Source of the DNA: Eubacteriaceae bacterium
Lineage (GTDB): Bacteria > Bacillota > Clostridia > Peptostreptococcales > Anaerovoracaceae
Assembly (NCBI GenBank): GCA_902362435.1
Contig: CABIWW010000002.1
Coordinates: 62,001-126,000, forward strand
DNA length: 64,000 bases
Reading direction: 5' to 3'
Each line of letters opens with the position of its first letter. The stretch's first letter is position 1. This document shows, piece after piece, positions 366 to 57,446 of this stretch. Under the pieces are notes generated by a model. That model ran no database searches, was not told where the DNA came from, and worked only from the letters and a program-made list of their open reading frames with translations. Both the position numbers and the translations under genes were made by a program.

Positions 366-1592
366 TTAGTTGGCTTTTACTACTGTGTAGTAAGTATCTT
401 CACCTTTTGCTTCTTTAACTACTTTGTAACCATCTGCTACGAAGTTAGTCCCAGCTCCTTCCGCAGAGTTATTGGAAGGGTCGAAGTTAATGAATGTACC
501 ACCCTTTATGATAACTTTTGCAGTTCCATTTTTGTAAGCGGCGTCAACGCAGTTGATCAGGAAATTGTATCCATACGGATCACCAAACGGCTCACATGCA
601 AATGTCCCGCCATTGATTGTCAGCGTACCTTCCTGTACCTGAACTGCAGTGCCACCGCCGTAATAGTATCCATTATTGATAATCAGGTTAGCACCATTGC
701 GAACGTTGATTCCGTATCCACCATTCACACCTGTGTCTATACCACCGTTTTTAGTTGCATTAATCGTAGTATCTGCATCAACAATCAATGCGCAGAAATT
801 TTTGCCGTTATTTCCCATGTTATCCGGGCTGATGATTTTTGCATCCAGATTCAGTGTCGTCGGGTTCGAAATGATTATACGAGCATCTGCAGTATCTTCA
901 CTATTATTAGTCTTGATATCCTTTGTTACAGAAACAGTACCACCATTACTCAGTGATTCTTTCAGCTCAGCAACTGACTTCACTGGATAAGTCGCACTCT
1001 TATCATATGTATTGTTGAAGCTGTCATTCTCTACTGTATCCTGCGTTGCGTAAACAGTAATGCTGATACCTTCGATGGACAGTCCCTGATATTCATTCCC
1101 TGCGGATTCCTGCATATGTCCCTGAATAGTCATCGCAGCTGATTCTGCTTTAGCAGTCAGTGATTTTTCAGCATCTAATTCGCCACCATCAATAGTCCAG
1201 TTAATAACTTCGTTCAGCTTCTTATCGCCCTCGATACCTGTCACTTCCAGTTTGTACTTCAGCGCCAGGTTACCGTTATTCACAACTTTAATCTTCGGTA
1301 GTTTATAAGTACATCCCGGTTCCCAAAGGATATCTGCATTTTCGACTAAACTTCCATTTGCTTGTTTCTGTAAAAACTTCAGCGTCTGTCCTTCTGCATC
1401 ATTCCAAGTAGTTCCATCATCTGTCGAATACAGTAACTGCACATCCAGATTTCCCGCCTGGATTTTGTTCACACCTGTGCTTGCAGTGTCCGTGAACCAT
1501 GCGAATGTCGTTCCGATCAGCAGTACTATGCATAAGAATAACGCAAAGAGACTGCCTCGCAACGCTTTTTTAGTCTTTGTGCTTTCGTTCAT
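366..1592 (-). CDS. SipW-tagged cargo protein with beta-helix-like C-terminal half
   Basis: 408 residues. Residues 1-31 are a SipW-type signal (KKALRGSLFALFLCIVLLIG then TTFAWFTDTAS). Residues about 45-200 form a TasA/CalY-like domain that includes WEPGCTYKLPKIKVVNNGNLALKY, a region shared across the cluster, and the block after GNEYQGLSI. Residues about 205-375 carry short repeated turns such as LIINNGYYYGG, LTINGGTF and VIIKGGTF, typical of a parallel beta-helix. The last 30 residues (GYKVV...YYTVVKAN) are nearly identical to the next paralog. Probably exported, cleaved by SipW and assembled on the surface as fibre or matrix. The first 200 residues are nearly identical to the 1786-3009 protein while the middle differs, pointing to recombination or diversifying change. 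Substrate and adhesion role are unknown. Confidence 0.85.
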   Translation of the reverse strand: MNESTKTKKALRGSLFALFLCIVLLIGTTFAWFTDTASTGVNKIQAGNLDVQLLYSTDDGTTWNDAEGQTLKFLQKQANGSLVENADILWEPGCTYKLPKIKVVNNGNLALKYKLEVTGIEGDKKLNEVINWTIDGGELDAEKSLTAKAESAAMTIQGHMQESAGNEYQGLSIEGISITVYATQDTVENDSFNNTYDKSATYPVKSVAELKESLSNGGTVSVTKDIKTNNSEDTADARIIISNPTTLNLDAKIISPDNMGNNGKNFCALIVDADTTINATKNGGIDTGVNGGYGINVRNGANLIINNGYYYGGGTAVQVQEGTLTINGGTFACEPFGDPYGYNFLINCVDAAYKNGTAKVIIKGGTFINFDPSNNSAEGAGTNFVADGYKVVKEAKGEDTYYTVVKAN

Positions 1593-1607
1593 TGCTCCAT
1601 TTCCTTT

Positions 1608-1760
1608 CTGCTTCTCAATGATTGAATTAATATGATCGCTCCAAATCCCATTACTGCCTTAATTCCAATTCGGAAAGTAAAGAGCACTGTATCACATATC
1701 ATATGCATCAATAGAATGCCCTTTACTTTCCGCTCACCGGACGGTGAGCGGAAGATTTAA
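1608..1760 (-). repeat. Intercistronic two-hairpin element, copy 2
   Basis: The same layout as the 186-340 element: long-stem arms at 1671-1686 and 1717-1732 (16 bp with one G-U on the minus-strand RNA) and short hairpin CCGCTCACC (1730-1738) with GGTGAGCGG (1743-1751). The whole gap is nearly identical to the 3025-3171 gap, including the stretch upstream of the ribosome site. Confidence 0.7.
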
Positions 1761-1785
1761 ATAAATAGTACTTAAATCTCAATAA

Positions 1786-3009
1786 CTAGTTGGCTTTTAC
1801 TACTGTGTAGTAAGTGTCATTGCCCTTTACTTCAGATTTTACTGTGTAGCCAGATGCCAAGAAGTTAGTATCTTTACCTTCTGCCTGACAGTCTGCCGGG
1901 TTAAAGTTGATGAAAGTACCGCCCTTAACTATGATCTTGGCAGTTCCATTAGCGCGGTTTGCATCATAACAGTTCAATACGAATTCATCTGCCTTGGCTG
2001 CATCTGGGTATTTCTGCTGTACGGAGTATGTACCGCCTTCAATGATTGCAGTTCCTTCATAAACATATACAGCATGAATATTTCCTACAAATGTACCATT
2101 TTTGATAACTACAGTACTTCCGTCCTGTACATCTACAGCATAGCAGTCGTTAGCCTTTGCCTTGAATGTACCGTTACCGTCGATTGTCAGACTCGAGCCA
2201 TTCTGTGCAGAAACCAGCGACCAGTTGTTTGGGGCTACATCCCAAATATCACTAGTATTAGCAATCGTTTTGCCATTCATATTGAGTGTAATGTCTTTCT
2301 TTTCAGCGATTAAAGTTCTCTCCGGAGCAACACTTTCGTTTACATTGATCACCGATCCAGCTTTTTTCATAGCATCACTGATTGCGGCTACACTATTTGC
2401 GTCTACACGAGCGTCTTTATCATACTGATTATTGAAGCTGTCGCTTTCTACCGTATCCTGCGTTGCATATACAGTAATGCTGATACCATCAATCGACAGG
2501 CCCTGATATTCATTACCTGCGGATTCCTGCATATGTCCCTGAATAGTCATCGCATTCGAAGGTTGTCCAGCGGTCAAACTGTCATCAAAATCTGTCAATG
2601 CTTTACCATCAATAGTCCAGTCAATGACTTCATTCAGCTTCTGATCACCTTCTACTCCAGTTACCTTCATGGTGTACTTCAGCGCCAGGTTGCCGTTATT
2701 CACAACTTTAATCTGCGGCAGTTTGTAGGTACATCCCGGTTCCCAAAGGATGTTTTCACCTTCAGCTACAGTTTCATCTGCCTGCTTCTGTAAAAATTTC
2801 AGCGTCTTTCCTTCCGCATTATTCCAGGTAGTTCCATCTGTCGAATACAGTAACTGCACATCCAAGTTCCCTGACTGGATCTTGTTCACGCCTGTGCTTG
2901 CAGTGTCTGTGAACCATGCGAATGTCGTTCCTATCAGCAGCACGATGCATAAGAATAATGCAAAGAGGCTGCCGCGGAGCGCTTTTTTAGTTTTTGTACT
3001 CTCGTTCAT
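1786..3009 (-). CDS. SipW-tagged cargo protein with beta-helix-like C-terminal half
   Basis: 407 residues, a close paralog of the protein at 366-1592. Same signal (TTFAWFTDTASTG), same TasA-like domain to about residue 200, then a different middle (about 200-330) with turns such as LTIDGNGTF, VVIKNGTF and AIIEGGTY, and a conserved end (IIVKGGTFINF...YYTVVKAN). Start ATG at 3007-3009 is preceded by AGGAAATGGAG. A SipW substrate by its signal; the beta-helix reading is inferred from repeat spacing, not from a profile match. Shared ends with a divergent core suggest cassette-like variation of the exposed part. Confidence 0.85.
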   Translation of the reverse strand: MNESTKTKKALRGSLFALFLCIVLLIGTTFAWFTDTASTGVNKIQSGNLDVQLLYSTDGTTWNNAEGKTLKFLQKQADETVAEGENILWEPGCTYKLPQIKVVNNGNLALKYTMKVTGVEGDQKLNEVIDWTIDGKALTDFDDSLTAGQPSNAMTIQGHMQESAGNEYQGLSIDGISITVYATQDTVESDSFNNQYDKDARVDANSVAAISDAMKKAGSVINVNESVAPERTLIAEKKDITLNMNGKTIANTSDIWDVAPNNWSLVSAQNGSSLTIDGNGTFKAKANDCYAVDVQDGSTVVIKNGTFVGNIHAVYVYEGTAIIEGGTYSVQQKYPDAAKADEFVLNCYDANRANGTAKIIVKGGTFINFNPADCQAEGKDTNFLASGYTVKSEVKGNDTYYTVVKAN

Positions 3010-3024
3010 TGCTCCATTTCCTTT

Positions 3025-3171
3025 CTGCTTTTCAATGATTGAATTAATATGATCGCTCCAAATCCCATTACTGCCTTAATTCCAATTCGGAAAGTAAAGA
3101 GCATTGTATCACATATCATATGCATCAATAGAATGCCCTTTACTTTCCGCTCACTTGCCAGTGAGCGGAAA
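3025..3171 (-). repeat. Intercistronic two-hairpin element, copy 3
   Basis: Long-stem arms at 3088-3103 and 3134-3149; short hairpin with 12-bp arms 3144-3155 and 3160-3171. The innermost pair is T-A here (CTCACT/AGTGAG) where copies 1 and 2 have C-G (CTCACC/GGTGAG), a compensatory change that supports a folded RNA. Confidence 0.7.
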
Positions 3172-3197
3172 TACATAAAGCTTATATTGCTTCGCTT

Positions 3198-4370
3198 TTA
3201 TTTGCTGACAACATACCAGTCGCCATCCTGGGTTACTTTACATCCGGCTCCAAGGAATACTTCATTTGGTCCCATCGCAGGATTGGATGGATCGTATTTG
3301 TAGAATCTACCACCGTTAACGATGATTTTCGCTTTTCCTCTGTCTGTGTCCTTAACATTAAGGGTATTATCCGGTGTAACCGCCTTAAAGGTTCCACCAT
3401 TGATTTCAATCGTCGATTTATCCGTTGCATAAATCAAATCGCATATTGGATCATCTTTCGGAACTCCTACCTGACGGAAGTCTCCTCCATTGATGATAAC
3501 CCTACTGGTTCCACCAGCTTCAACAGCCATGGCACCGCCATTATTGTACACGGCATATACGTCAGCATTAATGGTAAACTGAGCACTTCCCTCAGCCTGA
3601 ACTGCACCAAAGCCGCCATTTGCCTGAATTTTTCCAGTAATGTTATGCTGTCCAGAACTGTAACTTACTGTTGAAAGAGTCGTTGCAGCGTTTTCATCAT
3701 ATGTATTATTGAAGCTATCAGATTCCACAGTTGCCTGAGTTGCATTTACAACCAGTCCCAGTCCTTTCAGTGAAGGCTTACGCCAAGACTGAACATTGTT
3801 CGCTTCATTACCAACTGTAGTCGGCATATAGAGAACAACCGCAGTTGGTGCACTCTTTTCGCCAGCCTTCAGAACAGTCCAATCTTTACTGATCGGAGTT
3901 TCTTTTGCTATTGTCTTCTCTGTATCAGCGATTGCTGCAATCGCTGCTTCGCGGTTTGCAAAAGCAGTATCCGTCTGCGCTGTACCAATCTTCAGATACT
4001 TGTCGATGTAGAAGAAATCACCAGCAGCATTTTTTCCTCTTTCCATATCATAAGAGTTTGTAGCTATATTGTATTTCAGTGCCAGATTTCCAGCATTCTT
4101 CACACGGAGATATACAACCTCTGTGTGCCCCGGTTCCCAAAGAGTGTCGTCATTAAACATCTGAGTATTCTGGTTTGCAGTCTTCCAAGTGCTGCAATCT
4201 GTACTGTATTCCAGCTCTACATCCAAGTTACCCGCCTGGATCTTGTTCACGCCTGTGCTTGCGGTGTCTGTGAACCATGCGAATGTTGTTCCGATCAGCA
4301 GCACGATGCATAAGAATAATGCAAGGAGACTGCCGCGGAGCGCTTTTTTCGTTTTTGTGCTCTCGTTCAT
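3198..4370 (-). CDS. SipW-tagged cargo protein with beta-helix-like C-terminal half
   Basis: 390 residues from the ATG at 4368-4370, chosen over an upstream in-frame ATG because it matches the MNESTKTKKAL start of its paralogs and follows AGGAAAAG. Signal TTFAWFTDTASTG; TasA-like domain with LWEPGHTEVVYLRVKNAGNLALKY; about residues 250-360 have turns such as VIINGGDF, IEINGGTF and IIVNGGRF. It differs from the two downstream cargos in the TasA part and instead resembles the cargo at 12605-13771 (SRGKN/GFF-type insert, AGEKSAPTAVVLYMPTTVGNEA). First cargo gene after sipW. A G9 tract lies 36-44 bases upstream of its start. Confidence 0.85.
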   Translation of the reverse strand: MNESTKTKKALRGSLLALFLCIVLLIGTTFAWFTDTASTGVNKIQAGNLDVELEYSTDCSTWKTANQNTQMFNDDTLWEPGHTEVVYLRVKNAGNLALKYNIATNSYDMERGKNAAGDFFYIDKYLKIGTAQTDTAFANREAAIAAIADTEKTIAKETPISKDWTVLKAGEKSAPTAVVLYMPTTVGNEANNVQSWRKPSLKGLGLVVNATQATVESDSFNNTYDENAATTLSTVSYSSGQHNITGKIQANGGFGAVQAEGSAQFTINADVYAVYNNGGAMAVEAGGTSRVIINGGDFRQVGVPKDDPICDLIYATDKSTIEINGGTFKAVTPDNTLNVKDTDRGKAKIIVNGGRFYKYDPSNPAMGPNEVFLGAGCKVTQDGDWYVVSK

Positions 4371-4405
4371 ACTTTTCTTTTCCTTTCTCAAAACGGCCTT
4401 TATTA

Positions 4406-4414
4406 CCCCCCCCC
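4406..4414 (-). promoter_or_regulatory. G9 homopolymer tract in promoter/leader of the cargo gene
   Basis: Nine C on the plus strand, so G9 on the coding strand, flanked by GTACA and TAATAA and lying 36-44 bases ahead of the ATG. Such tracts change length by slippage. A second G9 precedes the giant adhesin (21696-21704), and an interrupted one (GGGGGCGGG) precedes the sipW operon. Phase variation is inferred, not shown. Confidence 0.5.
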
Positions 4415-4549
4415 TGTACAAAATTCTATACATTACTATATGCAGGAGAGGTGGGATAATCCGGCAAAGCTCCACTGCGAACAAACGCTGACCTGTATTA
4501 TCGGATCATTCCCTGTTATTTCATATAAAGCATTGCGCTTTTATATATC

Positions 4550-5863
4550 TTATTTATCCTGATCGTCAGGCTGATCACCGACGATCGACCTGATGTCGAA
4601 GCTGCTGCGCTGCGCAGTATGTGCCGCCTGCGGTCTGGCCTGCTGAGTACGCGGTGCAGTGTTCTGTGCCGTGCGGGTCTGCTGATATCGCTGACTCATG
4701 TCCTGCTGCGGCATCTGACTGTGGCGTGAAGGCTGTGTATACTGCACGTCTGACTGCGTCGGACGCGCTGCCTGTGCCCGTCGAGCAGCCTGCTGTGTGT
4801 ACTGTGGAGTTGCCTGTGCCTGCGGCTGTGCCGGTGCTTGTGCCGGTCGAGCCTGCGGCTGCATCTGCTGAGACTGCTGAGCGTATGTTCTGCTCTGCTG
4901 GCTCATCTGAACCTGCGGATCTGCAGTACGCTGCGGCTTTGCATTAGAAGGCTCTGCCTGGACTCTCGGCTGAACCGGAGTCTGAGGCTGCACCGTATGC
5001 TGCATATTTGCATCATGCTGGACGCCTTGCGGAGCGGAAGCCTGCGGATTTGCATAAGTCCTGGTCTCCGGCTGATGGTTCTGCTGAGTGCCTTGCTGAA
5101 CGCCCGGCTGAGGCTGGGCTGCCTGCTGCGGCATCTGCGGCTGAGCCTGCTGTTGCTGCTGTATGTACTGCTGCATCAGTTCCGGCGATACCGTGCCGCC
5201 GTTCTGGCCCATCTGCTGCTGCATGCGCATCAGCTGTGCCATCATTTCCTGTGATTTCAGGCGCTCCTCCTCGAGCTCTTTCTTTTCCTTCTGTATCTCT
5301 TCCACCTGTTCTTTCTTGTACTTGCGGAAAAGCTTGATGCTGTTTCGCGCCTGTACGAGTATCAGTATGAAGAATGGTGTGAATATGCAGATAAAGTATC
5401 CGGGAACGGTCTTCAGGAACTGGAAGAATGTTCCGACGTTCGGTATGTGACCTTTGTATTTACCGATGACCAGATTGTATGTAACGATGCCCTGGTCGTT
5501 CGAATCGGTGGTGGTTCCGTATGTCACGAAGCCGGGGTTGCCGTCTTCGTCGGTGGTCACTTCGCGTATCTTATGTGTCACGATCTCGCCGTAGTTGGCT
5601 TCGTCCGGCGACTGGAACGAGATGATGTCGCCTTCCTTGAGTGTGCTCGGGTCGGTCTGTTTGATGATTACCAGGTCGCCTGCATCGAAGTCTGTCGCTT
5701 TCATGGAGTCGGACAGTACGATGAATACGCTGTAGCCGAACACGCTGCGGTCCGCGCGGTCGAATGTCGTGACGGAAATGATCGTGAATGCCATCATTCC
5801 CACTGAGAACACGACGATCATCCACACGATCACTTTTTTGATGATGTTCCAAGTTTTTTTCAT
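4550..5863 (-). CDS. sipW: SipW-type signal peptidase I with long Q-rich cytoplasmic tail
   Basis: 437 residues. Membrane segment about 10-31; S26B catalytic core about 40-145 with the nucleophile in LSDSM (Ser53) and a His at the general-base position (THK, His97), the Ser/His form used by SipW and ER-type peptidases rather than Ser/Lys; second membrane segment about 155-172. Then an unusual tail: a charged coiled coil (about 174-218) and about 220 residues rich in Q, P, A and R (runs such as QQYIQQQQQAQPQMPQQ). Canonical SipW proteins stop near 190 residues, so over half of this protein is extra and should face the cytoplasm. It processes the SipW-tagged neighbours. Codes 87 bp after the two-module membrane protein, likely the same operon. 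Confidence 0.9.
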   Translation of the reverse strand: MKKTWNIIKKVIVWMIVVFSVGMMAFTIISVTTFDRADRSVFGYSVFIVLSDSMKATDFDAGDLVIIKQTDPSTLKEGDIISFQSPDEANYGEIVTHKIREVTTDEDGNPGFVTYGTTTDSNDQGIVTYNLVIGKYKGHIPNVGTFFQFLKTVPGYFICIFTPFFILILVQARNSIKLFRKYKKEQVEEIQKEKKELEEERLKSQEMMAQLMRMQQQMGQNGGTVSPELMQQYIQQQQQAQPQMPQQAAQPQPGVQQGTQQNHQPETRTYANPQASAPQGVQHDANMQHTVQPQTPVQPRVQAEPSNAKPQRTADPQVQMSQQSRTYAQQSQQMQPQARPAQAPAQPQAQATPQYTQQAARRAQAARPTQSDVQYTQPSRHSQMPQQDMSQRYQQTRTAQNTAPRTQQARPQAAHTAQRSSFDIRSIVGDQPDDQDK

Positions 5864-5888
5864 TTAATCAGTTCTCCTTAACCGGTCT

Positions 5889-5958
5889 GTCGACTTGTCC
5901 AAGCCGATTTATTCAAGTCGCTTTATTTGAGTCGCTTTATTCGAGTCGATTTATTCGA
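5889..5958. repeat. Five tandem 14-bp repeats upstream of sipW
   Basis: Units of 14 bp: GTCGACTTGTCCAA (degenerate), GCCGATTTATTCAA, GTCGCTTTATTTGA, GTCGCTTTATTCGA, GTCGATTTATTCGA. The last unit runs into the 3' end of the upstream gene (its stop at 5951-5953 and final Phe-Glu codons). They fill the gap between that gene and sipW. Confidence 0.8.
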
Positions 5959-7297
5959 AAGCGTGCCCCGGATTGTTGCGCACCTGTGTAGCTGTTGCGC
6001 TCATCCTGAACGACAGGTTTTTGTCCTGCGCTTCGTTGCCTCTTTCTTTAGGGAAGTAAAACAGTATCGTCAGGTTTTTGCTCTCACCTGCGGTGATGAT
6101 GTCATCGCTGACTGCGGCCGAGCCTCTGGTGAGTTCGTCTGCCGTGCCCTGATACAGGACTTTACCGCTCTCGTCGTCGGTTATCGTCAGCTGGAGCACA
6201 TCTGCAAGGTCGCCTGCGACGTCTTCCATATATACTTTATAATAGGCGTCTATCGAGCCTTCGTTTTTGATGAAGAAATGCTTCTGGACTCTCATGCCGG
6301 GTTCGAACAGGTACTCGTTTTCCCGGATCACCGGTTCACCGTCATTGAGGTTGATCCTGACGATGCCGGTCTCGAAGGTATTGTCCTTAACCGAAACGAT
6401 AGAGGTTATCAGCGCGAATGTGGTCACGATCAGCATCAGAGCAAGCAGTACTGCGATCAGCATGCTTCGGTGCAGCTTCTTCTGGACTGCTGCATCTGCT
6501 TCGTCGCTGTTCGGGTCGTCCTGGCTGCCATTGCTGCTCCCTCCGCTTCCACTGTTGCGGTCACGGTCTATGCGGGATTTGATCAGCAGGATGATTATAG
6601 CCAGCGCGCATGCTGCGAATACCGTCCACAGCACCAGATTCATAGTGTCGCCGGTATTTGCCGTCAGACCGCCGTCGCCTTTGTCGCCCCCACCCGGTTT
6701 GGTCGGAGTCGTAGGGGTTGTCGGCTGGCTTGGCTCTGTCGGTTCCGTATGGCCTCCGTCGTCCTTTACATACCAGTACAGGTCAGCCTTGAGCAAAGCC
6801 TGCTGATATTCATTGCCTACGCTGGTATCGAGCCAGGCATCTACCCTGTACGTAACATCCGTACTGCCGCCCGCCGAGCCTGTGATGGTCTGCGAGAACT
6901 CCACTCCGTCCAGTTCTGCAAAGGTTCCGCGGCATACAGTCTCGCCGGAAGCCTCATCAGTGACGCTGACCTGCAGGACATCGCCCAGCTTTTTCGTCTG
7001 CTCGGTGACCTCGGCCTTGAAGTAAAGTGTCAGCGGGTCGTTGTGGTGGATGCGCACCGTGAAATCCTTCGTGACTTTGTCTCCCGGCACCATATTGCTC
7101 ACATCGAAAGCCTCGTTGTCCGATGCGTGCCTTTTGTAAAGCTCAAGCGTCGGCGAATCTCCGCTTCCGGGTGCGGCCGATACGACCACAAGACCCGCGC
7201 CGCTCAGCACGAGCAGCACGCAGAGGATACAGATAATACGCCGCAATATGACCGGTGATTTTAAAGTTTTTTTATCGTTAGATTCTTTGTTTATCAT
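5951..7297 (-). CDS. Two-module membrane protein, CalY/TasA-like, first gene of the sipW operon
   Basis: 448 residues. Membrane segment or signal 19-42; extracellular domain about 43-178; Thr/Pro linker 183-200; NTGD at 214-217 followed by membrane segment about 219-242 and basic residues. A second module begins at about 273: KKLHRSMLIAVLLALMLIVTTFALITS, resembling a SipW-type signal in the middle of the protein, followed by DNTFETGIVRINLND and LFEPGMRVQKHFFIKNEGSIDAYYKVY, the typical CalY core. Both halves share a related pattern (pulled N-G/D boundary, SGxTxxxGTxxEL). It looks like an in-frame fusion of two CalY-like proteins. Perhaps an anchor or assembly base for the fibre; this is inference from position. 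Confidence 0.75.
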   Translation of the reverse strand: MINKESNDKKTLKSPVILRRIICILCVLLVLSGAGLVVVSAAPGSGDSPTLELYKRHASDNEAFDVSNMVPGDKVTKDFTVRIHHNDPLTLYFKAEVTEQTKKLGDVLQVSVTDEASGETVCRGTFAELDGVEFSQTITGSAGGSTDVTYRVDAWLDTSVGNEYQQALLKADLYWYVKDDGGHTEPTEPSQPTTPTTPTKPGGGDKGDGGLTANTGDTMNLVLWTVFAACALAIIILLIKSRIDRDRNSGSGGSSNGSQDDPNSDEADAAVQKKLHRSMLIAVLLALMLIVTTFALITSIVSVKDNTFETGIVRINLNDGEPVIRENEYLFEPGMRVQKHFFIKNEGSIDAYYKVYMEDVAGDLADVLQLTITDDESGKVLYQGTADELTRGSAAVSDDIITAGESKNLTILFYFPKERGNEAQDKNLSFRMSATATQVRNNPGHAFE

Positions 7298-7450
7298 GGT
7301 TGTTTTCTCATTCGTTTTTTTGAAAAATCATATCAATAATTTTTTATGTGCCTTTTGTGACCTTATTCTGTTTTTTGCGACACAAAAGACACATTTATAT
7401 TACACCCGCCCCCTGATAGTTGGCAAGTATTTTTACATACCATTAACATT
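7298..7450 (-). promoter_or_regulatory. Probable promoter/leader of the sipW operon with G-rich spacer
   Basis: On the minus strand TTGCCA and TAATAT stand 18 bp apart, and the spacer contains GGGGGCGGG. The leader to the ATG at 7297 is about 100 bases and AT-rich. Confidence 0.4.
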
Positions 7451-7535
7451 TTTCCACTACTATTTTATATATATAAAACTGCACTGCTGCCCGACGTTCT
7501 CAGAAGGTCCGAAAGTTGCTGCCACAAATCGCCGT

Positions 7536-7571
7536 TACCAACATTAAGTCTGCGTACCTGTCTTGTTGGTA
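7536..7571. repeat. Solo TACCAA-N24-TTGGTA dyad
   Basis: TACCAA at 7536-7541 and TTGGTA at 7566-7571, exactly 36 bp overall; the stem extends by one or two bases (TTACCAAC, GTTGGTAA). Same geometry as the arrays at 9461-9717 and 28275-28529, but alone and in a divergent intergenic region. Confidence 0.75.
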
Positions 7572-9198: not shown

Positions 9199-9243
9199 TT
9201 TGTGTTTATGCAAAAATGCGGAAGACCCGTGTGTCATGGGTTT

Positions 9244-9449
9244 CCGGCGCGCCCCTGTCTGCTTGACAGAGGCGCGCCGGGGTCCATGATGTGCGGGTCG
9301 TTTTTGTTGCAACGGGTGTTGCTGCCGGGCCGGCGGAACTCGGAGAGGCCTGGTGGAATTCGGAGAGACCTGGCGACTCCGGCGGGCGCGCCGGAGTCTA
9401 CGGAATCGCCGTGCCAACCGAAGCCGGCGGGCCCACTGGGCGCGCCGGC
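9244..9449. repeat. GC-rich palindrome cluster after the NSS gene
   Basis: Three strong hairpins: CCGGCGCGCC/GGCGCGCCGG (9244-9253, 9271-9280, with inner CTGTC/GACAG), GACTCCGGCG/CGCCGGAGTC (9375-9398), and GCCGGCG/CGCCGGC (9423-9449). Between them sit two tandem 20-bp units (GAACTCGGAGAGGCCTGGTG at 9336, GAATTCGGAGAGACCTGGCG at 9356). GGCGCGCC cores recur. The first may end the NSS transcript, though no U-tract follows. Confidence 0.7.
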
Positions 9450-9460
9450 AGCTCGGATAT

Positions 9461-9717
9461 TACCAAGATTGCCGCTGCAGGTCTTTTCTTTTGGTAAAAA
9501 TCACCTGATATCCTTCATCTTAAAGAGACCGTTTACCAAACGACTTATTTTATCTATGTCTTTTGGGTAATTTTCTACGGAAAATATCGCTTTTTCCGTA
9601 ATAAAAATACCAAAAGTAAATATCAGGAATCCTATTTTGGGTATTCCCCATGAAAAAAAACAGGCGAATAACTGCTGTTTTTACCAACAACAGCCAGTCG
9701 CCTGATAATCTTTGGTT
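9461..9717. repeat. Array of four TACCAA-N24-TTGGTA dyads, 73-74 bp period
   Basis: Units at 9461-9496, 9534-9569, 9608-9643 and 9682-9717, each exactly 36 bp. Ends read TACCAA/TTGGTA, TACCAA/TGGGTA, TACCAA/TGGGTA and TACCAA/TTGGTT. The 24-base interiors and 37-38 base spacers share no common sequence. Bases just outside the arms covary (AATACCAA/TGGGTATT against ATTACCAA/TTGGTAAA). The array lies between convergent genes. The last unit is nested in CAGGCGA/TCGCCTG. Confidence 0.8.
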
Positions 9718-9852: not shown

Positions 9853-11052
9853 TCAGCGATCCCGTAGCAGTCTGTACATGCCTTCCTTCAGTCCGTCTAT
9901 CGAAAGCCGGAACATCGGGAATACTTTTTCGATCTCGAGAAACGATTCCGGCATCCATGCAGGATTCTCCTCTCTTTCCTGAGGGTGTAGCCATATCGAA
10001 TGCCTGTACTTTTCCTTAAAACGTCTGAACCACGTGATGCCGTCTGCGGGAGCACCGGCCCAGCTGCTGTACGTGCTGTATGAGCCGTCCGTCAGCTCAT
10101 GCATCGCCATGTCCGCATCGCCCACGAATATCACCTTGTAGTCTCCTGAGATATTCCTCAGCACCCAGTCGGTCTTCAGCGTTTCTTCAGTATCGATAGA
10201 TGGATCCTTGTAAAGCCTCTCCTCGAGGCAGTTGTGGAAATAATATATCTTCAGATCCGCGAACGTGTTCGCTTTGTGCAGCGACTGGAAAAGCAGGCTG
10301 CAGAGCTGTTCATAAGGGCGCATCGAACCGCCCGAATCGATCAGCAGCAGCAGCTTCAGTCTGTTTTTTCTCGGCGGCTGCATCCGTATATCGAGGATCC
10401 CCCCGCGGCTGCATGTGCTGTCGATCGTTCCGCGTATATCCAGCTCCTCTTCACTGTTTTCAAGCTTTCGCGACAGTTCTCTCAGCAGCCTGAACGCCAT
10501 CTGGAACTGCCTGGACTCGATGGTGCAGTCAGTGCGCCAGTCCCTGAACTTTCGGTCGCCGCGCGCGTGTATCACGCTTTTCCCGCCGGCGCCCTGCACC
10601 ATCGTACCGCCGCCTGCGCCAGGTCCCGCACCGATCCCTGCGGAAGCATTCCCCGCGACCTCGCTGCTCCCGAACACGGGACTGCCGTCGCTGTCACCGC
10701 CACTCTCCGAAAGCCGAGTTTCCATCGCCGCCATTATCGCCCGCAGATCCATATCATTTTTATCCATATAAGGCGCGAAAGCCCTTTCCACGAGCTCCGG
10801 ACGAGCCTGGATCTCCGCGATCTCAGCCTGCAGCTTTTGCGAACCGGCATTCCTGAAATACCTGTAAAACAGATCCTCGAACTTGTCCAGATCGCTCTCC
10901 GATTTGACGAGCAGCGCCCGGCAAAGAATATAGAATCCCCGCATTGACTGCCCGTGAAGCCCTGACTGCAGCCCTTCCATCAGCGCCAGCCAGTCATGCA
11001 TCGATACCTTGAAACCGCCAGCGCGCAGGAACAGCAGAAATTCCAGAAACAT
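9853..11052 (-). CDS. VWA domain protein, CoxE/MadC-like partner of MoxR ATPase
   Basis: 399 residues. N-terminal helical region (about 1-125), a Gly/Ala-rich linker, then a von Willebrand A domain from about 230. The metal site reads LLIDSGGSM, so the second residue of the usual DxSxS triad is Gly rather than Ser. FVGDADM follows at a conserved place. Start ATG overlaps the MoxR stop by one base (TAATG), so the pair is translationally coupled. MoxR/VWA pairs are thought to act as chaperones or metal-insertion machines for partner proteins; no obvious client is adjacent. Confidence 0.85.
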   Translation of the reverse strand: MFLEFLLFLRAGGFKVSMHDWLALMEGLQSGLHGQSMRGFYILCRALLVKSESDLDKFEDLFYRYFRNAGSQKLQAEIAEIQARPELVERAFAPYMDKNDMDLRAIMAAMETRLSESGGDSDGSPVFGSSEVAGNASAGIGAGPGAGGGTMVQGAGGKSVIHARGDRKFRDWRTDCTIESRQFQMAFRLLRELSRKLENSEEELDIRGTIDSTCSRGGILDIRMQPPRKNRLKLLLLIDSGGSMRPYEQLCSLLFQSLHKANTFADLKIYYFHNCLEERLYKDPSIDTEETLKTDWVLRNISGDYKVIFVGDADMAMHELTDGSYSTYSSWAGAPADGITWFRRFKEKYRHSIWLHPQEREENPAWMPESFLEIEKVFPMFRLSIDGLKEGMYRLLRDR

Positions 11053-11882
11053 TATCTGAGCCCTCCCATGCTTTTCTTCACGTCTTCCAGATCCTCATCC
11101 TTCTTGATCAGGAAACTGAGAAGCGGCAGATCGCGCCTGAGACTGTCCACCGGCAGCCCGCTGAGCCTGAGCGCACTGATCCAGTCAAGCAGCTCGCTGG
11201 TGCTCGGCTTTTTCTTCATCTCAAAATACTCGCGCACGTAGAAGAACGCATCGAGCGCCTGCTCCATCAGTTTTTCCTCGATATCCGGATAATGTGCCAG
11301 TATGATCTCTCGCATCTGCGCTTCGTCCGGGAATTCGATGAAGTGGAAAGCGCACCTGCGCAGGAATGCGTCAGGAAGCTCTTTCTCGGCATTCGACGTG
11401 ATTATCACGATCGGCGGGTTCTTCGCTCTGATCGTTTCATCGGTTTCGGGTATATAAAACTCCATTCGGTCGAGTTCCCAGAGCAGGTCGTTCGGGAATT
11501 CCAGATCGGCTTTATCTATTTCGTCTATCAGCAATACGCACTGCTTTTCCGCCGTGAAAGCTTCGCCGATCTTGCCCATTTTTATGTATCTTTTTATATC
11601 GTCGACGCCTTCATTCCCCAGCTCGCTGTCGTACAGCCTGCGAACGACGTCGTACTGGTACAGGCCATCCTGCGCCTTCGTGGTAGACTTGATGCTCCAG
11701 ACTATCAGCTCCTTGCCGAGCGCTTTTGCGATGGCTTCCGCAAGTGCGGTCTTGCCGGTCCCCGGCTCGCCCTTTACGAGAAGCGGCTTGTTCATTTTTA
11801 TCGCGATGTTCATCGTCAGCATGAGGTCGTCGCTGATGATATAGTCGTCAGTTCCTTTGAACTGATATGTGTTTTCGTTCAT
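11052..11882 (-). CDS. MoxR-type AAA+ ATPase
   Basis: 276 residues from the ATG at 11880-11882 (MNENTYQFKGTDDY), chosen because AGGAGAAAGAC precedes it. Walker A GEPGTGKT and Walker B VLLIDEID, followed by the ITSNAEKELPDAFLRRC sensor and arginine-finger region, as in the MoxR branch. C-terminal lid with a conserved LLDWISALRLSGLP motif typical of the subfamily that pairs with VWA proteins. Forms an operon with the downstream VWA gene. Predicted to remodel or load cofactors into an unknown client. Confidence 0.9.
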   Translation of the reverse strand: MNENTYQFKGTDDYIISDDLMLTMNIAIKMNKPLLVKGEPGTGKTALAEAIAKALGKELIVWSIKSTTKAQDGLYQYDVVRRLYDSELGNEGVDDIKRYIKMGKIGEAFTAEKQCVLLIDEIDKADLEFPNDLLWELDRMEFYIPETDETIRAKNPPIVIITSNAEKELPDAFLRRCAFHFIEFPDEAQMREIILAHYPDIEEKLMEQALDAFFYVREYFEMKKKPSTSELLDWISALRLSGLPVDSLRRDLPLLSFLIKKDEDLEDVKKSMGGLR

Positions 11883-12137
11883 GTCTTTCTCCTGTTTTAT
11901 GCAAAATTGCAGCATTGTTTTTTCATGCGTTTACAAACTTTACAATATAGGATTCTATCACGGTTTGGGCATTTCGTCCACTTTCATGGATATTTGATGT
12001 ATTTTATTATATGTTTTGGAATCTTATGGTATCTCATGCGTGTTGTCGCTCCTACCGTCGCTCCATCGGGGGCCTGCTCTTTGATTGCTTTGACTGCTAG
12101 ACTTTATCTTGTGTATTATTACGAGATTAATGAAAAT

Positions 12138-12334
12138 CCTGCACAATCTGCGTTTGAGATGTGCAGGATAATATGAAGCTGAAAAGAATCTACACAAGGA
12201 AAATCGCCAAAACGATAAAAATCTACCAAAATCTCATAAAATCGTCTTATTTTTAGCATGATCTCCGATTTCCTTGTGTAATGATTTTTACTCTTTACGG
12301 TCATCTGCACAATCGGAGGAGCCATTGTGCAGAT
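12138..12334. repeat. Nested inverted repeats in a 720-bp gap
   Basis: CCTGCACA/TGTGCAGG (12138-12167), ATCTGCACAAT/ATTGTGCAGAT (12303-12334), and between them a wide dyad TACACAAGGA...TCCTTGTGTA (12191-12280). The two outer hairpins share the TGCACA core. No gene is seen in 11883-12604. Confidence 0.6.
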
Positions 12335-12468
12335 ATTATCCGAAAGCCCGATTTCTACACAAAATGTATCCACTACACGCGTTTAATGCGCCGTAAAATG
12401 GCTCCGCCAATTTCTCTATGAGAAATTTCCTATTGCTGTAAAAAAACACTTGTCCCGAAATGTGAAAA

Positions 12469-12604: not shown

Positions 12605-13771
12605 TTATTCTGGAACAACATTGTACCAGTCGCCGTTCTGAACGACCTTGTAGCCGTCAGCAATGAATATTTCACCTTCGCCGACAGTGACATTGGACGG
12701 GTCAAACTTGTAGAACGAGCCACCCTTAACGGTGATAGTGGCAGCGTCGCTGTCATTACAGTTCAGCGTCCAAGCCGGGCTGACGCACTTAAAGGTGCCG
12801 CCTTCGATGGTGATCTTCGCACTGTCCTCTGCATAAATCAAGGACAGCGCGGAACCTGCGGGAGCCTGGTTTGCAAATTCGCCGCCCTTAATGATAATCT
12901 CGGATCTACTGGAGGCGCAGACGGCCATCGCGTAGTTGCTGACATAAGTGCCGTAAACCGTTGTAGCATCTACGGTAATCTTTGCAGTACCCGTTCCGTG
13001 AATTGCACCGGATGTGCCGTTTGCCTGAATGTTACCGGTCACTGTATGTACGCCGTCAGTATATTCCACGCGCTTGAGCACGGTAGCCGCATTTGCATCG
13101 TAATTGTTATCAAAGCTATCGCTTTCCACAGTCGCCTGAGTAGCGCGCACCTCAATGCCGAGGCCGGAGACAGAGGAAGGTCTGTGCCTTGAAGCATTGG
13201 CTTCGTTACCGACAGATGTAGGCATGTAGATCGCTACGGCAAAGGGTTTGGACTCTTCTCCTGCTTTCAGAGTAATCCATCCGTCGGTGAGCATAACATC
13301 CTTCGCCAAAGTCTTTTCGGTGGCGGCAATGGCAGACCAAACATCCTCGCGGTTTGCAAACTTGGTCGCGGTCCCGGCAGTGCCGATCTTCAGATAATTG
13401 TCCACACGGTACCAGTCGCCGTTAACATTTTTGCCCCTGTTTGAGGTGTAATTTTTGGAGAAGCCGGTCTCATATTTCAGAGCCAGATTGCCGGCATTTA
13501 CAACCTTCAGATACACCACCTGCGTGTAACCCGGCTCCCAAAGTGCATTGTCGTCAAAGAGCTTAGTCTGCTCGGTGGCTTCCTTCCATGTCTGCATATC
13601 GGTGCTGTACATGAGCTTGACGTCCAGGTTGCCTGCCTGAATCTTGTTGACACCGGTGGATGCGGTGTCGGTGAACCACGCAAAGGTGGTACCGATGAGC
13701 ATTGCCACGCACATAAAGATGGCCAGTACGCTGATAATCAATGCCCGCTTGGTAGATTTGCTGTTTGTCAT
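12605..13771 (-). CDS. SipW-tagged cargo protein, fifth copy, remote from sipW
   Basis: 388 residues. Signal MTNSKSTKRALIISVLAIF...TTFAWFTDTASTG, TasA-like domain with LWEPGYTQVVYLKVVNAGNLALKY, then beta-helix-like turns (IIIKGGEF, ITIEGGTF, ITVKGGSF) and a short end DGYKVVQNGDWYNVVPE. Closest in the window to the 3198-4370 cargo, with matching insert (SNRGKNVNGDWYRVDNYLKIGTA) and YMPTSVGNEA. It uses more GC-rich codons than that paralog. It sits 251 bp after the giant adhesin gene and about 7 kb upstream of sipW, so it must rely on that peptidase in trans. Confidence 0.85.
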   Translation of the reverse strand: MTNSKSTKRALIISVLAIFMCVAMLIGTTFAWFTDTASTGVNKIQAGNLDVKLMYSTDMQTWKEATEQTKLFDDNALWEPGYTQVVYLKVVNAGNLALKYETGFSKNYTSNRGKNVNGDWYRVDNYLKIGTAGTATKFANREDVWSAIAATEKTLAKDVMLTDGWITLKAGEESKPFAVAIYMPTSVGNEANASRHRPSSVSGLGIEVRATQATVESDSFDNNYDANAATVLKRVEYTDGVHTVTGNIQANGTSGAIHGTGTAKITVDATTVYGTYVSNYAMAVCASSRSEIIIKGGEFANQAPAGSALSLIYAEDSAKITIEGGTFKCVSPAWTLNCNDSDAATITVKGGSFYKFDPSNVTVGEGEIFIADGYKVVQNGDWYNVVPE

Positions 13772-28274: not shown

Positions 28275-28529
28275 TACCAATAATCAGTTTGCTGCATCGT
28301 ATTTTTAGCATTTTTCTTGAAAAACAGGGGCTCGCGGCGGAGCCGATTACCAAAATACAAAACCCGGACGTTCCATATTGGTAATTTTTCAAGAAAAACT
28401 GCGCTTTTACATAAGAAAAATACCAAGAATGCCCCTCACAGATAACATCCTTGGTATTTGTCTCTCTGAAAACCCTTTACTTTCAAGGAAAAATGCCAAA
28501 TCATATGGAGTAAGTACAGGTTCTTGGTA
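28275..28529. repeat. Array of four TACCAA-N24-TTGGTA dyads, exact 73-bp period
   Basis: Units at 28275-28310 (TACCAA/TTAGCA, degenerate), 28348-28383, 28421-28456 and 28494-28529 (TGCCAA/TTGGTA), each 36 bp, start to start 73 bp every time. Flanking pairs covary (ATTACCAA/TTGGTAAT against AATACCAA/TTGGTATT). The second unit is nested inside a perfect 14-bp inverted repeat TTTTTCTTGAAAAA (28311-28324) with TTTTTCAAGAAAAA (28385-28398). Located between convergent genes like the 9461 array. Confidence 0.8.
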
Positions 28530-39871: not shown

Positions 39872-40249
39872 TTATGCCTGATGCTGCAATATCCACTCCA
39901 ACAGTCCCTGCGCATGGATTTTTCCACTTGCCACCTGAAGAATAACATCAATCAGTTCCTCCTGCGTATAGCTCAGTTCAATTCCATTGATTGCCAGAAA
40001 AACTAACATTACATGAGCACCGATTCTCTTATTTCCGTCTACGAATGGATGATTACTGACCAGACCAAATCCCAACTGTGCTGCTTTTGCCTGCAAAGAA
40101 GGATACAGGTATTTCCCTCCAAACGTAGCAAATGGTGTATTCAATGCAGAGTCAAGAAGTCCCTGATCCCGAACTCCTGCGGTCCCTCCGAATTCCCTCA
40201 GCAGTGCATCATGCAGCTCCAGTACCTGTTCACTGCTCAGCCTTCTCAT
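39872..40249 (-). CDS. doc: Doc-type toxin (Fic fold)
   Basis: 125 residues. Death-on-curing motif HPFVDGNKR at 67-75, the active-site loop of Doc toxins, which phosphorylate EF-Tu in the characterised case. Early GTAGVRDQGLLDSAL is a Doc hallmark. Overlaps the antitoxin gene by four bases. With Phd it forms a type II module; an intact catalytic motif suggests it is active. Confidence 0.9.
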   Translation of the reverse strand: MRRLSSEQVLELHDALLREFGGTAGVRDQGLLDSALNTPFATFGGKYLYPSLQAKAAQLGFGLVSNHPFVDGNKRIGAHVMLVFLAINGIELSYTQEELIDVILQVASGKIHAQGLLEWILQHQA

Positions 40250-40488
40250 TTTGCCAGCACCTCATATGCATGCTTATTTTTTACCATAAGACGCTTTGAA
40301 ATCTCTTGTATATCTTCATCTTCTGCAAGCTGTTCCGCTTCCAATTGGTTGAACTCCATGAGGATATAGCGCGGTACATTATTCTTTAAAATGATTGCTG
40401 CTCCGTTTTCATCAACCATTCTTGCAACACGCGAAAAATTCTGATTTGCATCTGTGATGGAAACCAGATTATCTGTATTGATCATCAT
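40246..40488 (-). CDS. Phd/YefM-type antitoxin
   Basis: 80 residues. N-terminal DNA-binding fold (NLVSITDANQNFSRVARMVDENGAAIILKNNVPRYILM) typical of Phd/YefM, C-terminal region expected to wrap the toxin. AAGGAGG precedes the ATG. Toxin and antitoxin order (antitoxin first, overlap) is classic. Probably autoregulates its operon. Confidence 0.85.
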   Translation of the reverse strand: MMINTDNLVSITDANQNFSRVARMVDENGAAIILKNNVPRYILMEFNQLEAEQLAEDEDIQEISKRLMVKNKHAYEVLAK

Positions 40489-40679
40489 ATTTATCGCCTC
40501 CTTTATCTATATAGTAGCACGTTTTAGGATAAATTCAACCTATTTATTGAGCATGAAATATAATACTTACATTAATTATTATATTGAAAATTCTACAACT
40601 GCTACAATGTACTCCAAAACATAATCATAGATCTGGATCTTCCGGTATGATCTTTTTTACAGATTATAGAGATAGTAAA

Positions 40680-40714
40680 ATCCCGAATCGTTGATTTTTC
40701 AACAGATTCGGGAT
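40680..40714. terminator. Hairpin after hicB
   Basis: ATCCCGAATC (40680-40689) pairs with GATTCGGGAT (40705-40714), U-runs on both sides. A covarying copy stands at 41488-41522 on the other side of hicAB. Besides this and the -10/-35 area, 40489-40730 shows no gene. Confidence 0.7.
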
Positions 40715-40730
40715 ATATTTTTCTCAGGCT

Positions 40731-41093
40731 TTATTTTGAATATACTGCGTCATTTCTGGACAGAAGATACACACAATACTGATTCATGCTGATCCCCTCT
40801 CTCTGAGAATGCTCTGCCAGTGACCTGTGCAGACTTCGTGGAATTCTCAATTTAAACTGTCCAGAATAATCTTCCAAACTATCCGGCTCATGAATTTCTA
40901 TACCTTCTTCCAGCGCTGCTTCAAGCCATGTTTTTTTTGCATCCAGCGCATTTGCTACTGCACTTTCTACGGTTTCGCCACAAGTAATGCATCCAGGCAA
41001 ATCCGGATAAGAAACCACAAATCCGCCTTCATCCTTGTCCTCCACAATTTCCATACGATAGGACATTGCCATATAATCATTCAGCGTCTTCAT
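40731..41093 (-). CDS. hicB: HicB-type antitoxin
   Basis: 120 residues from ATG 41091-41093 (an adjacent ATG is possible). N-terminal HicB fold YRMEIVEDKDEGGFVVSYPDLPGCITCGETVESAVANALDAKKTWLEAALEEG and a ribbon-helix-helix C-terminus (KLRIPRSLHRSLAEHSQREGISMNQYCVYLL). Its start overlaps the hicA end by 17 bases. Neutralises HicA and should repress the operon. Confidence 0.9.
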   Translation of the reverse strand: MKTLNDYMAMSYRMEIVEDKDEGGFVVSYPDLPGCITCGETVESAVANALDAKKTWLEAALEEGIEIHEPDSLEDYSGQFKLRIPRSLHRSLAEHSQREGISMNQYCVYLLSRNDAVYSK

Positions 41094-41334
41094 CATTCTT
41101 CGCCTCACTTTCTACAATCTGCCTTACCATTTCCACATATACTTTTTTAATCGGTTCGTGTTTTGGGATCGTAATTGGCATACAACCTTGCTTTCTGAAA
41201 GTGTAATGACTACTTCCACTTCTTGGTGCATTCATTTCATATCCGTAGCTTTCCAATACCTTCCGTAACTCATTAAATCGAAGATCGTTCGATAAATTAC
41301 ATATACGTGTTATCAGTTTATCCCATTTTGACAT
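41077..41334 (-). CDS. hicA: HicA-type mRNA interferase toxin
   Basis: 85 residues, dsRBD-like HicA fold. The catalytic His sits in SGSSHYTFRKQG, and IPKHEPIKKVYVEMVRQIV is the usual end; NLRFNELRKVLESYGYE matches the family start. HicA toxins cleave mRNA. First gene of the pair. The family is slightly longer than usual at the N-terminus. Confidence 0.9.
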   Translation of the reverse strand: MSKWDKLITRICNLSNDLRFNELRKVLESYGYEMNAPRSGSSHYTFRKQGCMPITIPKHEPIKKVYVEMVRQIVESEAKNDEDAE

Positions 41335-41752: not shown

Positions 41753-42622
41753 TCAACCATTTGTTTCTGTATCTTCAATAAGATTTTTCTTTAGTGCCTC
41801 TATCGTATCTTGGTTCTTTCTTAAAAGTTCTAATTGCCTGTACGCTTTTTCTCTTAATATTTTCAGCCTTTCAATTTTAGGTACTTCCTGTCTTATCAGG
41901 TCTGCATTTGTATCTTCCAGATTGATAAGCACAACCAATTCTTCCGCTGAAGCAAAATCTCGGATATTAGGAGTTTTCCCTTTTATTCCTTTTTCACTTC
42001 TCCACTGTGCTGCTGTTTTTCCAAACAAAGCCATATTTAGAATATCTGCTTCTGAAGCATATGTATATGCCATTTCCTGCGGAGATAGTGTGGGAGTTAT
42101 CAAGAATTCTTTTACTGCATCTGTATGGATACGATAATTTATTTTTGAAAGTTCTCTCTTTACATCCCACCCAATCGCTAACCGATCTGCTTCGTCTTTC
42201 TTTAGTCGCTGATAATCTTTGATGATATAAAGCTTAAATTCCGGCGAAATCCATGAAGCAAACTCAAACGCTATATCCGTATGAGCATAAGTGCCGCCAT
42301 ATCGTCCTGATTTTGATACGATACCAATTGCATCTGTGGCTTTTATCCACTGCTGTGGTGTCAACGTAAAAGCATTATCTCCCGACTCTGCTTTAAACCT
42401 ATCGAATTCGATAGGTTTAAAATTAGGATTGTGAATCTGTTCCCACAATCCTAAGAATGAAATTGTAGAATAGTTACGCATCCAATTGGCAACTACAATA
42501 AAAGCATTATCCGGATTTTTATATTTAGCAATATCTGTAAGCGAAATGTATGCTTCCTCATTAACAACATCGCCCATTACTCTGATTTCTGTTCCGTTAG
42601 CATCTATTTTCATATTCTTCAT
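41753..42622 (-). CDS. KilA-N domain protein
   Basis: 289 residues. N-terminal KilA-N fold (EEAYISLTDIAKYKNPDNAFIVVANWMRNYSTISFLGLWEQIHNPNF...GRYGGTYAHTDIAFEFASWISPEFKLYIIKDYQRLK), about 15-145, a DNA-binding domain common in phages and mobile elements. The C-terminal half (about 150-289) is helical, ending in a Glu/Lys-rich coil. AT-rich relative to the guaA gene beside it. Likely a regulator carried by an old mobile island; role unknown. A 23-bp dyad lies upstream. Confidence 0.85.
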   Translation of the reverse strand: MKNMKIDANGTEIRVMGDVVNEEAYISLTDIAKYKNPDNAFIVVANWMRNYSTISFLGLWEQIHNPNFKPIEFDRFKAESGDNAFTLTPQQWIKATDAIGIVSKSGRYGGTYAHTDIAFEFASWISPEFKLYIIKDYQRLKKDEADRLAIGWDVKRELSKINYRIHTDAVKEFLITPTLSPQEMAYTYASEADILNMALFGKTAAQWRSEKGIKGKTPNIRDFASAEELVVLINLEDTNADLIRQEVPKIERLKILREKAYRQLELLRKNQDTIEALKKNLIEDTETNG

Positions 42623-56146: not shown

Positions 56147-56429
56147 TTTCAGCCAAAAGTATATGAAATTCATAGTGTCATGGCTGAAATATGTAAATTG
56201 CATTGCGCCCGAAGCCTCCACACCGTTCTTTCACATCACGGCTCTTATCATACTTTCACATACATTTCCAGTGCATTTCCTGTTTTCAGCCATTTCTAGG
56301 TTTATCTCTTATTGCTCGGCTGAAAAATCCCAGTTACTCATTTGCTGCCAGCTATCAGAACCTCTTCAGAAACATATAATTTACAGTTTTCAGCCATTTA
56401 CACTTGAAAATTTCAGTTTATGGCTGAAA
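56147..56429. repeat. Three TTTCAGCC/GGCTGAAA dyads
   Basis: 56147-56189, 56284-56325 and 56388-56429; arms TTTCAGCC/GGCTGAAA, 42-43 bp overall and 26-27 bases between arms. Start-to-start distances are 137 and 104 bp. Interiors differ. The gap 56043-56588 is AT-rich and has no gene. Confidence 0.75.
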
Positions 56430-56588: not shown

Positions 56589-57446
56589 ATGATCAGCAGA
56601 GAAGCCATACAAAAGGAACTGATAAAATGCAGAAAAATAAAGACCAGGTTGACACGTCAGCTTAAAGAACTGCCTGACAACACGCTTTTTACGAAGCTAG
56701 AGCACGGAAAGCCCAGATTATACACGTATTCAAACGGGAAGCCTCTGTATCTCTCACAAAATTCCTTTCCCGTTTTTGCAGAAATAGCCACAGGCAAGAT
56801 ACTGCGCTTCCTTTTAGAGCAGCTTTCTGTCAATATATCATCGCTTGAAAATCTGAGCTCAGAATACACGCCTCTGCCCGAAATGTTTCAACTGGAAAAT
56901 ATATCGCCGGCACTTCGTGATCTCCGCTACAGCATCAAGGGAACCGTGGCTGAAAGCAGCTGGAACGATCAGCTTCTGCGATATTTACAAGAAGAATTCC
57001 TGCCGGCTCAACAGGGACGCATTACCGAACGTGACATCTATATCTGGAGGTCCATCAAATATGAGGGCAACCCCTACCGCCCGGAGCAAAAGATTCACCA
57101 AACCCCAGGCGGCATCTATGTCCGTTCAAAATCCGAACTCCTTATCGCGACTCATCTCGAGTACATGGATATCCCGTACCGCTACGAAGCACCTCTGGTT
57201 CTGGAAGGCAATACAGTGTATCCCGATTTCAGCATACTTCGACCTGCCGATCATAAGCTTATATACTGGGAACATATGGGCATGCTGGGCGACTTCGATT
57301 ACGCGCAGAAGGCCAGCATGAAACTCATGCAATATTTTCAATGCAATATCCGTCCCTATGACAATCTCATAACTACATACGATGATAACGGTACGCTCGA
57401 TATGGCTCATATCGAACAGATCACGAATACGATGCTCCTTTATTGA
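56589..57446 (+). CDS. Putative PD-(D/E)XK-like protein, uncharacterised
   Basis: 285 residues. N-terminal coil (1-40), a middle part with a QLLRYLQEEFLPAQ helix, and a C-terminal block VRSKSELLIATHLEYMDIPYRYEAPLVLEGNTVYPDFSILR...YWEHMGM, which looks like a restriction-endonuclease-like fold (Glu in KSE, Asp in PDF, Glu in WEH). The last catalytic position is His rather than Lys, so activity is uncertain. AAGGAGG precedes the ATG. Alone on its strand, downstream of the dyad trio. Function unknown. Confidence 0.65.
   Translation: MISREAIQKELIKCRKIKTRLTRQLKELPDNTLFTKLEHGKPRLYTYSNGKPLYLSQNSFPVFAEIATGKILRFLLEQLSVNISSLENLSSEYTPLPEMFQLENISPALRDLRYSIKGTVAESSWNDQLLRYLQEEFLPAQQGRITERDIYIWRSIKYEGNPYRPEQKIHQTPGGIYVRSKSELLIATHLEYMDIPYRYEAPLVLEGNTVYPDFSILRPADHKLIYWEHMGMLGDFDYAQKASMKLMQYFQCNIRPYDNLITTYDDNGTLDMAHIEQITNTMLLY

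Follow-up and report, generated by a model that had tools for sequence, protein, structure and literature searches.

In the REPIN/RAYT systems, as set out in extracts of two papers (PMC3116915, PMC3733652), the gene for a DNA-acting enzyme lies beside an inverted-repeat doublet of its own flavour, doublets are also found at extragenic positions, and several flavours of doublet can occur in one genome. TIGR-Tas systems, according to an excerpted account of them (PMC12045711), have an array beside a protein gene, with a repeat that is constant at any one locus and varies from locus to locus. The homing endonuclease I-Bth0305I, in a partial text of its description, acts as a dimer on a target just under 60 bp long (PMC3943268). 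Here we describe arrays of inverted six-base arms in a 64-kb stretch of DNA (the window) together with a family of nuclease genes, which resemble the first two systems in these respects. We propose, with a probability of roughly 0.7, that the TACCAA dyads of the window are paired half-sites of a dimeric DNA-binding protein of this nuclease family, and that the window copies are orphans.

TACCAA dyads of the window

A pattern scan for TACCAA-N24-TTGGTA recovered the four-dyad array that the initial annotation had picked out, with starts at 9461, 9534, 9608 and 9682, every unit spanning 36 bp, and spacings of 73, 74 and 74 bp that bear out the period of 73-74 bp given there. The first dyad (9461..9496) is exact, the second (9534..9569) and third (9608..9643) have the right arm TGGGTA and the fourth (9682..9717) has the right arm TTGGTT (0, 1, 1 and 1 mismatches to TACCAA..TTGGTA). 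A second array has a period of exactly 73 bp and mismatches of 2, 0, 0 and 1; its first dyad (28275..28310) has the right arm TTAGCA, the second and third (28348..28383 and 28421..28456) are exact, and the fourth (28494..28529) has the left arm TGCCAA. A lone exact dyad lies at 7536..7571. With up to two mismatches allowed, the window contains nine such matches, compared to a mean of 1.37 and a maximum of 4 in 100 dinucleotide shuffles, and the dyads are indeed present above chance level.

The 6-bp arms are the sole constant part of the TACCAA locus, and the earlier statement that there is no constant repeat holds here. The window arrays do not display the near-identical repeats and unrelated spacers of a CRISPR, and some related arrays elsewhere are, unlike the TACCAA locus, near-perfect tandem repeats. 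That only the six-base ends are kept is nearly correct, but the interiors are not wholly unrelated: local alignment of array 1 with array 2 scored 55, whereas 200 mononucleotide shuffles of array 2 scored 38 at most, with the similarity coming mainly from unit 2, spacer 2 and unit 3. Because they have sequence in common beyond the arms, the two arrays are probably old copies of one repeat. Covariation of the outer bases, which had also been claimed, is weak; the bases flanking the arms are complementary in seven of nine units (by eye), but the context is A/T-rich.

Both four-dyad arrays sit between convergent genes and the lone dyad at 7536 between divergent genes, with short frames that overlap dyads (e.g. 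7248-7547, 9202-9570) treated as chance. The genes flanking the arrays encode an SNF-family transporter, a VWA_CoxE-like protein just under the Pfam cut-off and, both named by eye, an MFS-type transporter and an RluB-type pseudouridine synthase. Elsewhere in the window, the only Rfam match at gathering score is a SAM riboswitch (49227-49352, minus strand), which lies ahead of a gene (47613-48806) that by eye resembles S-adenosylmethionine synthetase. At 39872-41334 there are gene pairs which, by eye, we take to be toxin-antitoxin-like, of Doc/Phd-like and HicA/HicB-like types, and these are adjoined by a gene for a KilA-N domain protein (Pfam; 41753-42622). The stretches 366-7297 and 12605-13771 presumably encode four TasA/camelysin-like paralogs with a common IGTTFAWFTD motif; they are accompanied by a signal-peptidase-like gene, and the neighbour at 5951-7297 matches Peptidase_M73 (Pfam).

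Scanning GTDB contigs for TACCAA-N24-TTGGTA-N37/38-TACCAA gave 27 loci, and three loci matched among viral sequences. Dyads are in register in only one of these, L026 (Butyrivibrio sp. INlla16), where the period is 53 bp and a member of the nuclease family described below is encoded at 1799-2611, and the other GTDB and viral matches contain no array; by eye, L028 and L029 resemble coding sequence. The nearest family was located through the VWA-like protein adjoining array 1, with 66-69% identity in G348, G363 and G420 (148 genomes sampled), while the transporter adjoining array 2 has 66% identity in G580 and 62% in G579 (among 349 genomes). Whether the period is kept elsewhere, a check proposed with the initial annotation and run here in part, received a divided answer: none of the 349 genomes in the nearest family reached contained the TACCAA pattern at 73 bp, with up to three mismatches, but arrays of similar geometry recur with other arms. 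Single TACCAA dyads in six close genomes (0, 3, 5, 0, 3 and 0) showed no clear excess over controls (4, 4, 4, 2, 0 and 2), and it may be by coincidence that two lineages, Butyrivibrio and that of the window, have TACCAA arms.

A nuclease family with adjacent arrays

The window contains a gene of an unnamed EDxHD/PD-(D/E)XK-like nuclease family (56589..57446, plus strand, 285 aa), the only one found there, for which no Pfam family was matched at E <= 0.001. Proteins of this family have about 270 aa, with an EDxHD/PD-(D/E)XK-like domain at the C-terminus and an N-terminal part that probably comprises a helix, a beta-hairpin and a long helix, and whose structural matches are long-helix rows. No family in Pfam (scan of 70 members) or NCBIfam covers the nuclease, and there was no sequence-level match in the PDB; the best fold match of the catalytic domain is the EDxHD homing endonuclease I-Bth0305I. 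Profile matches (E <= 0.001) were found in 120/299 and 243/349 sampled genomes of two families. Among PADLOC models, the C-terminal domain of the candidate defence proteins PDC-S68 matches all of the members scanned (70/70) and HEAT_CxxC_PDDEXK matches the nuclease domain more weakly (52/70); the models of PDC-S68 extend over more than 1200 positions, and their match is confined to the nuclease end. Since the domain is common to these two models, the same nuclease domain may, judging from sequence likeness, serve in defence proteins.

Dyad arrays with arms other than TACCAA are associated with these genes. A scan for clustered inverted 7-mers, run on the window and on about 0.92 Mb from relatives, gave further arrays with different arms, TTTCAGCC and TGTGYA in the window and TTTGCAGTC and TTCGATGCA in G580, although the scan is noisy: a single shuffled copy of that sequence yielded 43 clusters. 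Three TTTCAGCC...GGCTGAAA dyads (starting at 56147, 56284 and 56388; 56147..56429), compared to one or two in ten shuffles, lie just upstream of the nuclease gene of the window and are probably its own array. At 12109..12362, upstream of an AAA ATPase gene (11052-11915), two nested copies of TTGTGTA..CTGCACA..TGTGCAG..TACACAA were recognised by eye in the output of the scan, with outer arms TTGTGTA/TACACAA and inner arms CTGCACA/TGTGCAG; by eye, an alternative reading is a set of four TGTGYA dyads, each 36-37 bp long, and tentatively this is possibly another orphan dyad array. Repeats of other kinds were also seen, namely near-perfect 85-bp tandem repeats CGCCAAATC...GATTTGGGC (L137:157-353, G580) and two TACAACATA-N8-TATGTTGTA hairpins 186 bp apart (L107:9480-9691, G420), the loop of the latter being much shorter than in the dyads studied.

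Using one fixed script that reports the best array, we found at least three same-arm dyads in 22/30 nuclease loci compared to 7/150 shuffles, and in 51/68 further nuclease loci compared to 3/340 shuffles, the loci tested being high-scoring profile matches and not a random draw. When these 30 and 68 loci are taken together with L132, which was known beforehand (L215 is the same locus as L026), at least three same-arm dyads are present within 1 kb of the nuclease gene in 64/99 loci and not in 35/99. For control genes (VWA-type), regions of the same size gave 0/36 with at least three dyads, and whole loci gave 2/36. No convincing array was seen at ten loci with viral relatives of the nuclease. 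The gene-linked arrays lie upstream of the gene in 49 of the 64 cases and downstream in 17 (two of these have both), and the distance from the end of an upstream array to the start codon ranges from -16 to 684 bp, with a middle value of 70 bp (49 arrays). This preference for the region ahead of the start codon suggests autoregulation of the nuclease gene. Overall, the correlation between arm sequence and protein is weak (Spearman 0.08; Mantel r 0.18, 0/500 permutations); it is clear only among close relatives, and joint inheritance could be an alternative cause of it. Paralogs of a single genome, G858, have differing arms (CCGACT, GGGGTC and TGGGCA).

Orphan sites

Three genomes contain further sites that have the arms of a gene-linked array but no nuclease gene. 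The CCGACT arms of one gene-linked array in G858 are found at five more sites, giving 28 dyads in total, mostly at 53-bp spacing, with interiors that mostly agree inside the larger clusters and vary from site to site. CCGACT dyads number 12 in G838, one in G704 and 0, 1, 0, 1 and 0 in five other genomes; the reversed pattern was found 0 times in G858, G838 and G704, and 0, 1, 3, 0 and 1 times in the five others. Similarly, there are 20 TGCAGTC...GACTGCA dyads in G580, 10 in G579, and 0, 1 and 0 in G420, G363 and G348; the reversed pattern occurs in neither G580 nor G579. These 30 dyads are 35-36 bp long in all but one (30 bp), and 18/30 belong to exact pairs 135-137 or 147-148 bp apart.

One of the nuclease genes of G580, on contig C79 (one of five fetched from seven nuclease matches in that genome), has variant TTTGCAGTC repeat copies on both sides, and other copies are scattered; tblastn detected no nuclease gene at the G580 repeat loci fetched before C79. 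The single nuclease gene detected in G579 is without a TGCAGTC array. Around 11 orphan sites the DNA fetched contained no nuclease gene, and ten of these sites are clear of open frames while one overlaps a long open frame. By eye, several copies of the TTTGCAGTC repeat (L183, L187, L188, L192, L195) have further flanking sequence in common, including terminator-like hairpins and a CGCCTGAAATATCTNAGGCGCTC-like hairpin, so that the dyad-core-dyad repeat may be part of a larger composite unit. The TACCAA arrays of the window resemble orphan sites in their fixed arms, fixed turns, drifting interiors and lack of an adjoining nuclease gene. By analogy, they are most likely orphans of a cognate nuclease gene outside the 64-kb window. 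A gene-end element, which had been another suggestion, finds little encouragement here. The position at gene ends seems incidental: two arrays of the window lie between convergent genes, but the lone dyad does not, and the repeat clusters of G580 and G579 (n=21) occur in tandem (8), convergent (5) and divergent (4) gaps alike, with four not callable.

Dispersed repeats of this kind could also be the recognition ends of a REPIN- or MITE-like miniature mobile element, with binding for mobility only, an explanation that overlaps partly with the nuclease reading and that we consider unlikely. Such an element would be in keeping with the dyad-core-dyad repeat, of which 16 distinct copies could be aligned in G580 and G579, extragenic apart from 2/21 clusters that overlap an open frame of at least 80 codons, as well as with the variant copies that flank the nuclease gene in G580 and with a layout that parallels RAYT/REPIN. 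However, Y1 transposase (PF01797) was not found in G580 or G579, nor in G420 or G348, and two were found in G363, although the assemblies may be incomplete. Moreover, drift has affected interiors and cores but not the arms, a pattern suggestive of selection once the copies had dispersed; inspection by eye revealed no target-site duplication, and many gene-linked arrays resemble tandem repeats grown at one site.

Helical phasing and arm changes

The spacing of successive dyads follows the DNA helix. Of 101 distinct values, 82 fall at 51-54, 62-64, 72-75, 82-86 or 93-95 bp, and the modal spacing per array (66 arrays) gave a vector length R of 0.81 at 10.5 bp (phase -0.03 bp), whereas jittered sets reached at most 0.39 in 5000 trials; all 101 distinct spacings gave 0.73 at 10.5 bp. 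The 73-74 bp spacing of the window arrays corresponds to seven helical turns. Clustering at 10.5 bp is expected for a protein bound along duplex DNA. Thus, both helical phasing and the association with nuclease genes point to the nucleoprotein array among the guesses of the initial annotation, and we infer that the nuclease protein binds the dyads, dimerises and cuts.

Changes in the arms were compared with the consensus of each locus. In 46 arrays with a total of 304 units, a departure from consensus was seen in 111 arm pairs, 107 of them on one side and four on both; one of the four double changes is compensated and three are uncompensated, with 1.6 doubles expected by chance. The one-sided changes leave a wobble on the gene's strand in 24 cases and on the other strand in 38, and break pairing on both strands in 45. 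In the window itself, the changes TGGGTA (twice), TTGGTT, TTAGCA and TGCCAA are all uncompensated. Uncompensated changes fit recognition of duplex DNA and not RNA pairing, which disfavours the structured RNA that had been suggested.

A further possibility is that the dyads act at the RNA level, transcripts of the arrays forming hairpins with variable loops, such as TIGR-like guide RNAs of an RNA-guided nuclease; we regard this as very unlikely. The gene-plus-array layout, the locus-specific arms and the units of about 36 nt do resemble TIGR arrays as excerpted (PMC12045711), interiors are variable in some arrays, and in four single arrays wobble is confined to one strand, perhaps because tandem duplication copied a single change. 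Besides the arm changes, however, the spacing tracks the helical repeat of DNA, and several of the large arrays inspected have near-identical interiors, unlike guide spacers. An Rfam 15 covariance-model search gave no match at gathering score over the window arrays, nor did a search with the repeats of seven related loci, and an RNA element was rejected with no backing from Rfam or from arm covariation. The absence of Nop, HNH and RuvC families from the Pfam scan of 70 members also argues against it, and the lack of a Nop domain and of RNA covariation, together with the 10.5-bp phasing, sets these loci apart from TIGR-Tas.

Helical phasing, a mostly extragenic position and the placing of both four-dyad window arrays between convergent genes might be expected if a general nucleoid or topology factor (BIME-like) occupied the arrays, with the nuclease gene merely a frequent neighbour. 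We find this highly improbable, as different genes have different arms, as do paralogs in the same genome, control genes are without arrays, and a match from the dyad pattern scan led back to a nuclease gene. Neutral tandem repeats homogenised by gene conversion, without protein recognition, are hardly credible, for although several arrays are near-perfect tandem repeats, arms and spacing stay while interiors differ in the diverged array L218 and between G858 sites, and spacings cluster at multiples of 10.5 bp.

Discussion

We return to the reading of the dyads as half-sites of the nuclease protein. Each dyad would consist of two inverted half-sites about three helical turns apart, and successive dyads, mostly 5, 6, 7, 8 or 9 whole turns apart, would place bound dimers on one face of the DNA. 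Nuclease genes would often carry an adjacent array with their own arm sequence, the same arms also appearing in orphan arrays; the two TACCAA arrays and the lone dyad would be such orphans, and a matching nuclease gene is predicted beyond the window. The nuclease might spread or amplify its own sites through break repair and unequal recombination, in a REPIN/RAYT-like or homing-like manner, and clustered sites might in turn restrain its expression or activity. Among candidate roles, which include a selfish or homing-like one, a regulatory one and that of a decoy, a partnership of this REPIN/RAYT-like or homing-like kind appears to be the most likely, although we are less sure of it.

We found no description of the nuclease family with arrays in the open-licence literature, and the dyad arrays are apparently a large and undescribed class of gut-bacterial DNA repeats. 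If many genes adjoin an array that probably spells the binding site of their product, protein-site pairs may be readable from sequence alone, and a large set of such pairs would give a natural code of DNA specificity.

Compared to I-Bth0305I, the genes described here adjoin multi-dyad arrays and not a single intron insertion site. It is the REPIN/RAYT systems that, by analogy, offer most closely a working parallel: in three relatives, inverted doublets are both dispersed extragenically and present beside the enzyme gene, whereas the window has dispersed TACCAA dyads only. Nevertheless, the enzyme here does not belong to the Y1 (HUH) transposases, and the arms have a short length of 6-9 bp and, as judged by eye from the window arms and flanks, are without the GTAG/CGTC tag of REPs; the arrays are phased to the helical repeat, and they are not known to form an excision intermediate. 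A REPIN/RAYT system in the strict sense was therefore rejected, with no Y1 transposase found in the repeat-bearing genomes G580 and G579 and the sequence tag absent. There is, in our judgement, an even chance that these loci constitute a new and widespread two-part system of gut Clostridia, in which small EDxHD/PD-(D/E)XK-like endonucleases, with several paralogs per genome, each have their own half-sites in phased arrays and orphans, with fast-changing specificities that can be read from the DNA, a REPIN/RAYT-like arrangement independently invented with a different enzyme. It would then provide a second case, with an unrelated enzyme, for asking why bacteria keep enzyme-plus-repeat partnerships such as RAYT/REPIN.
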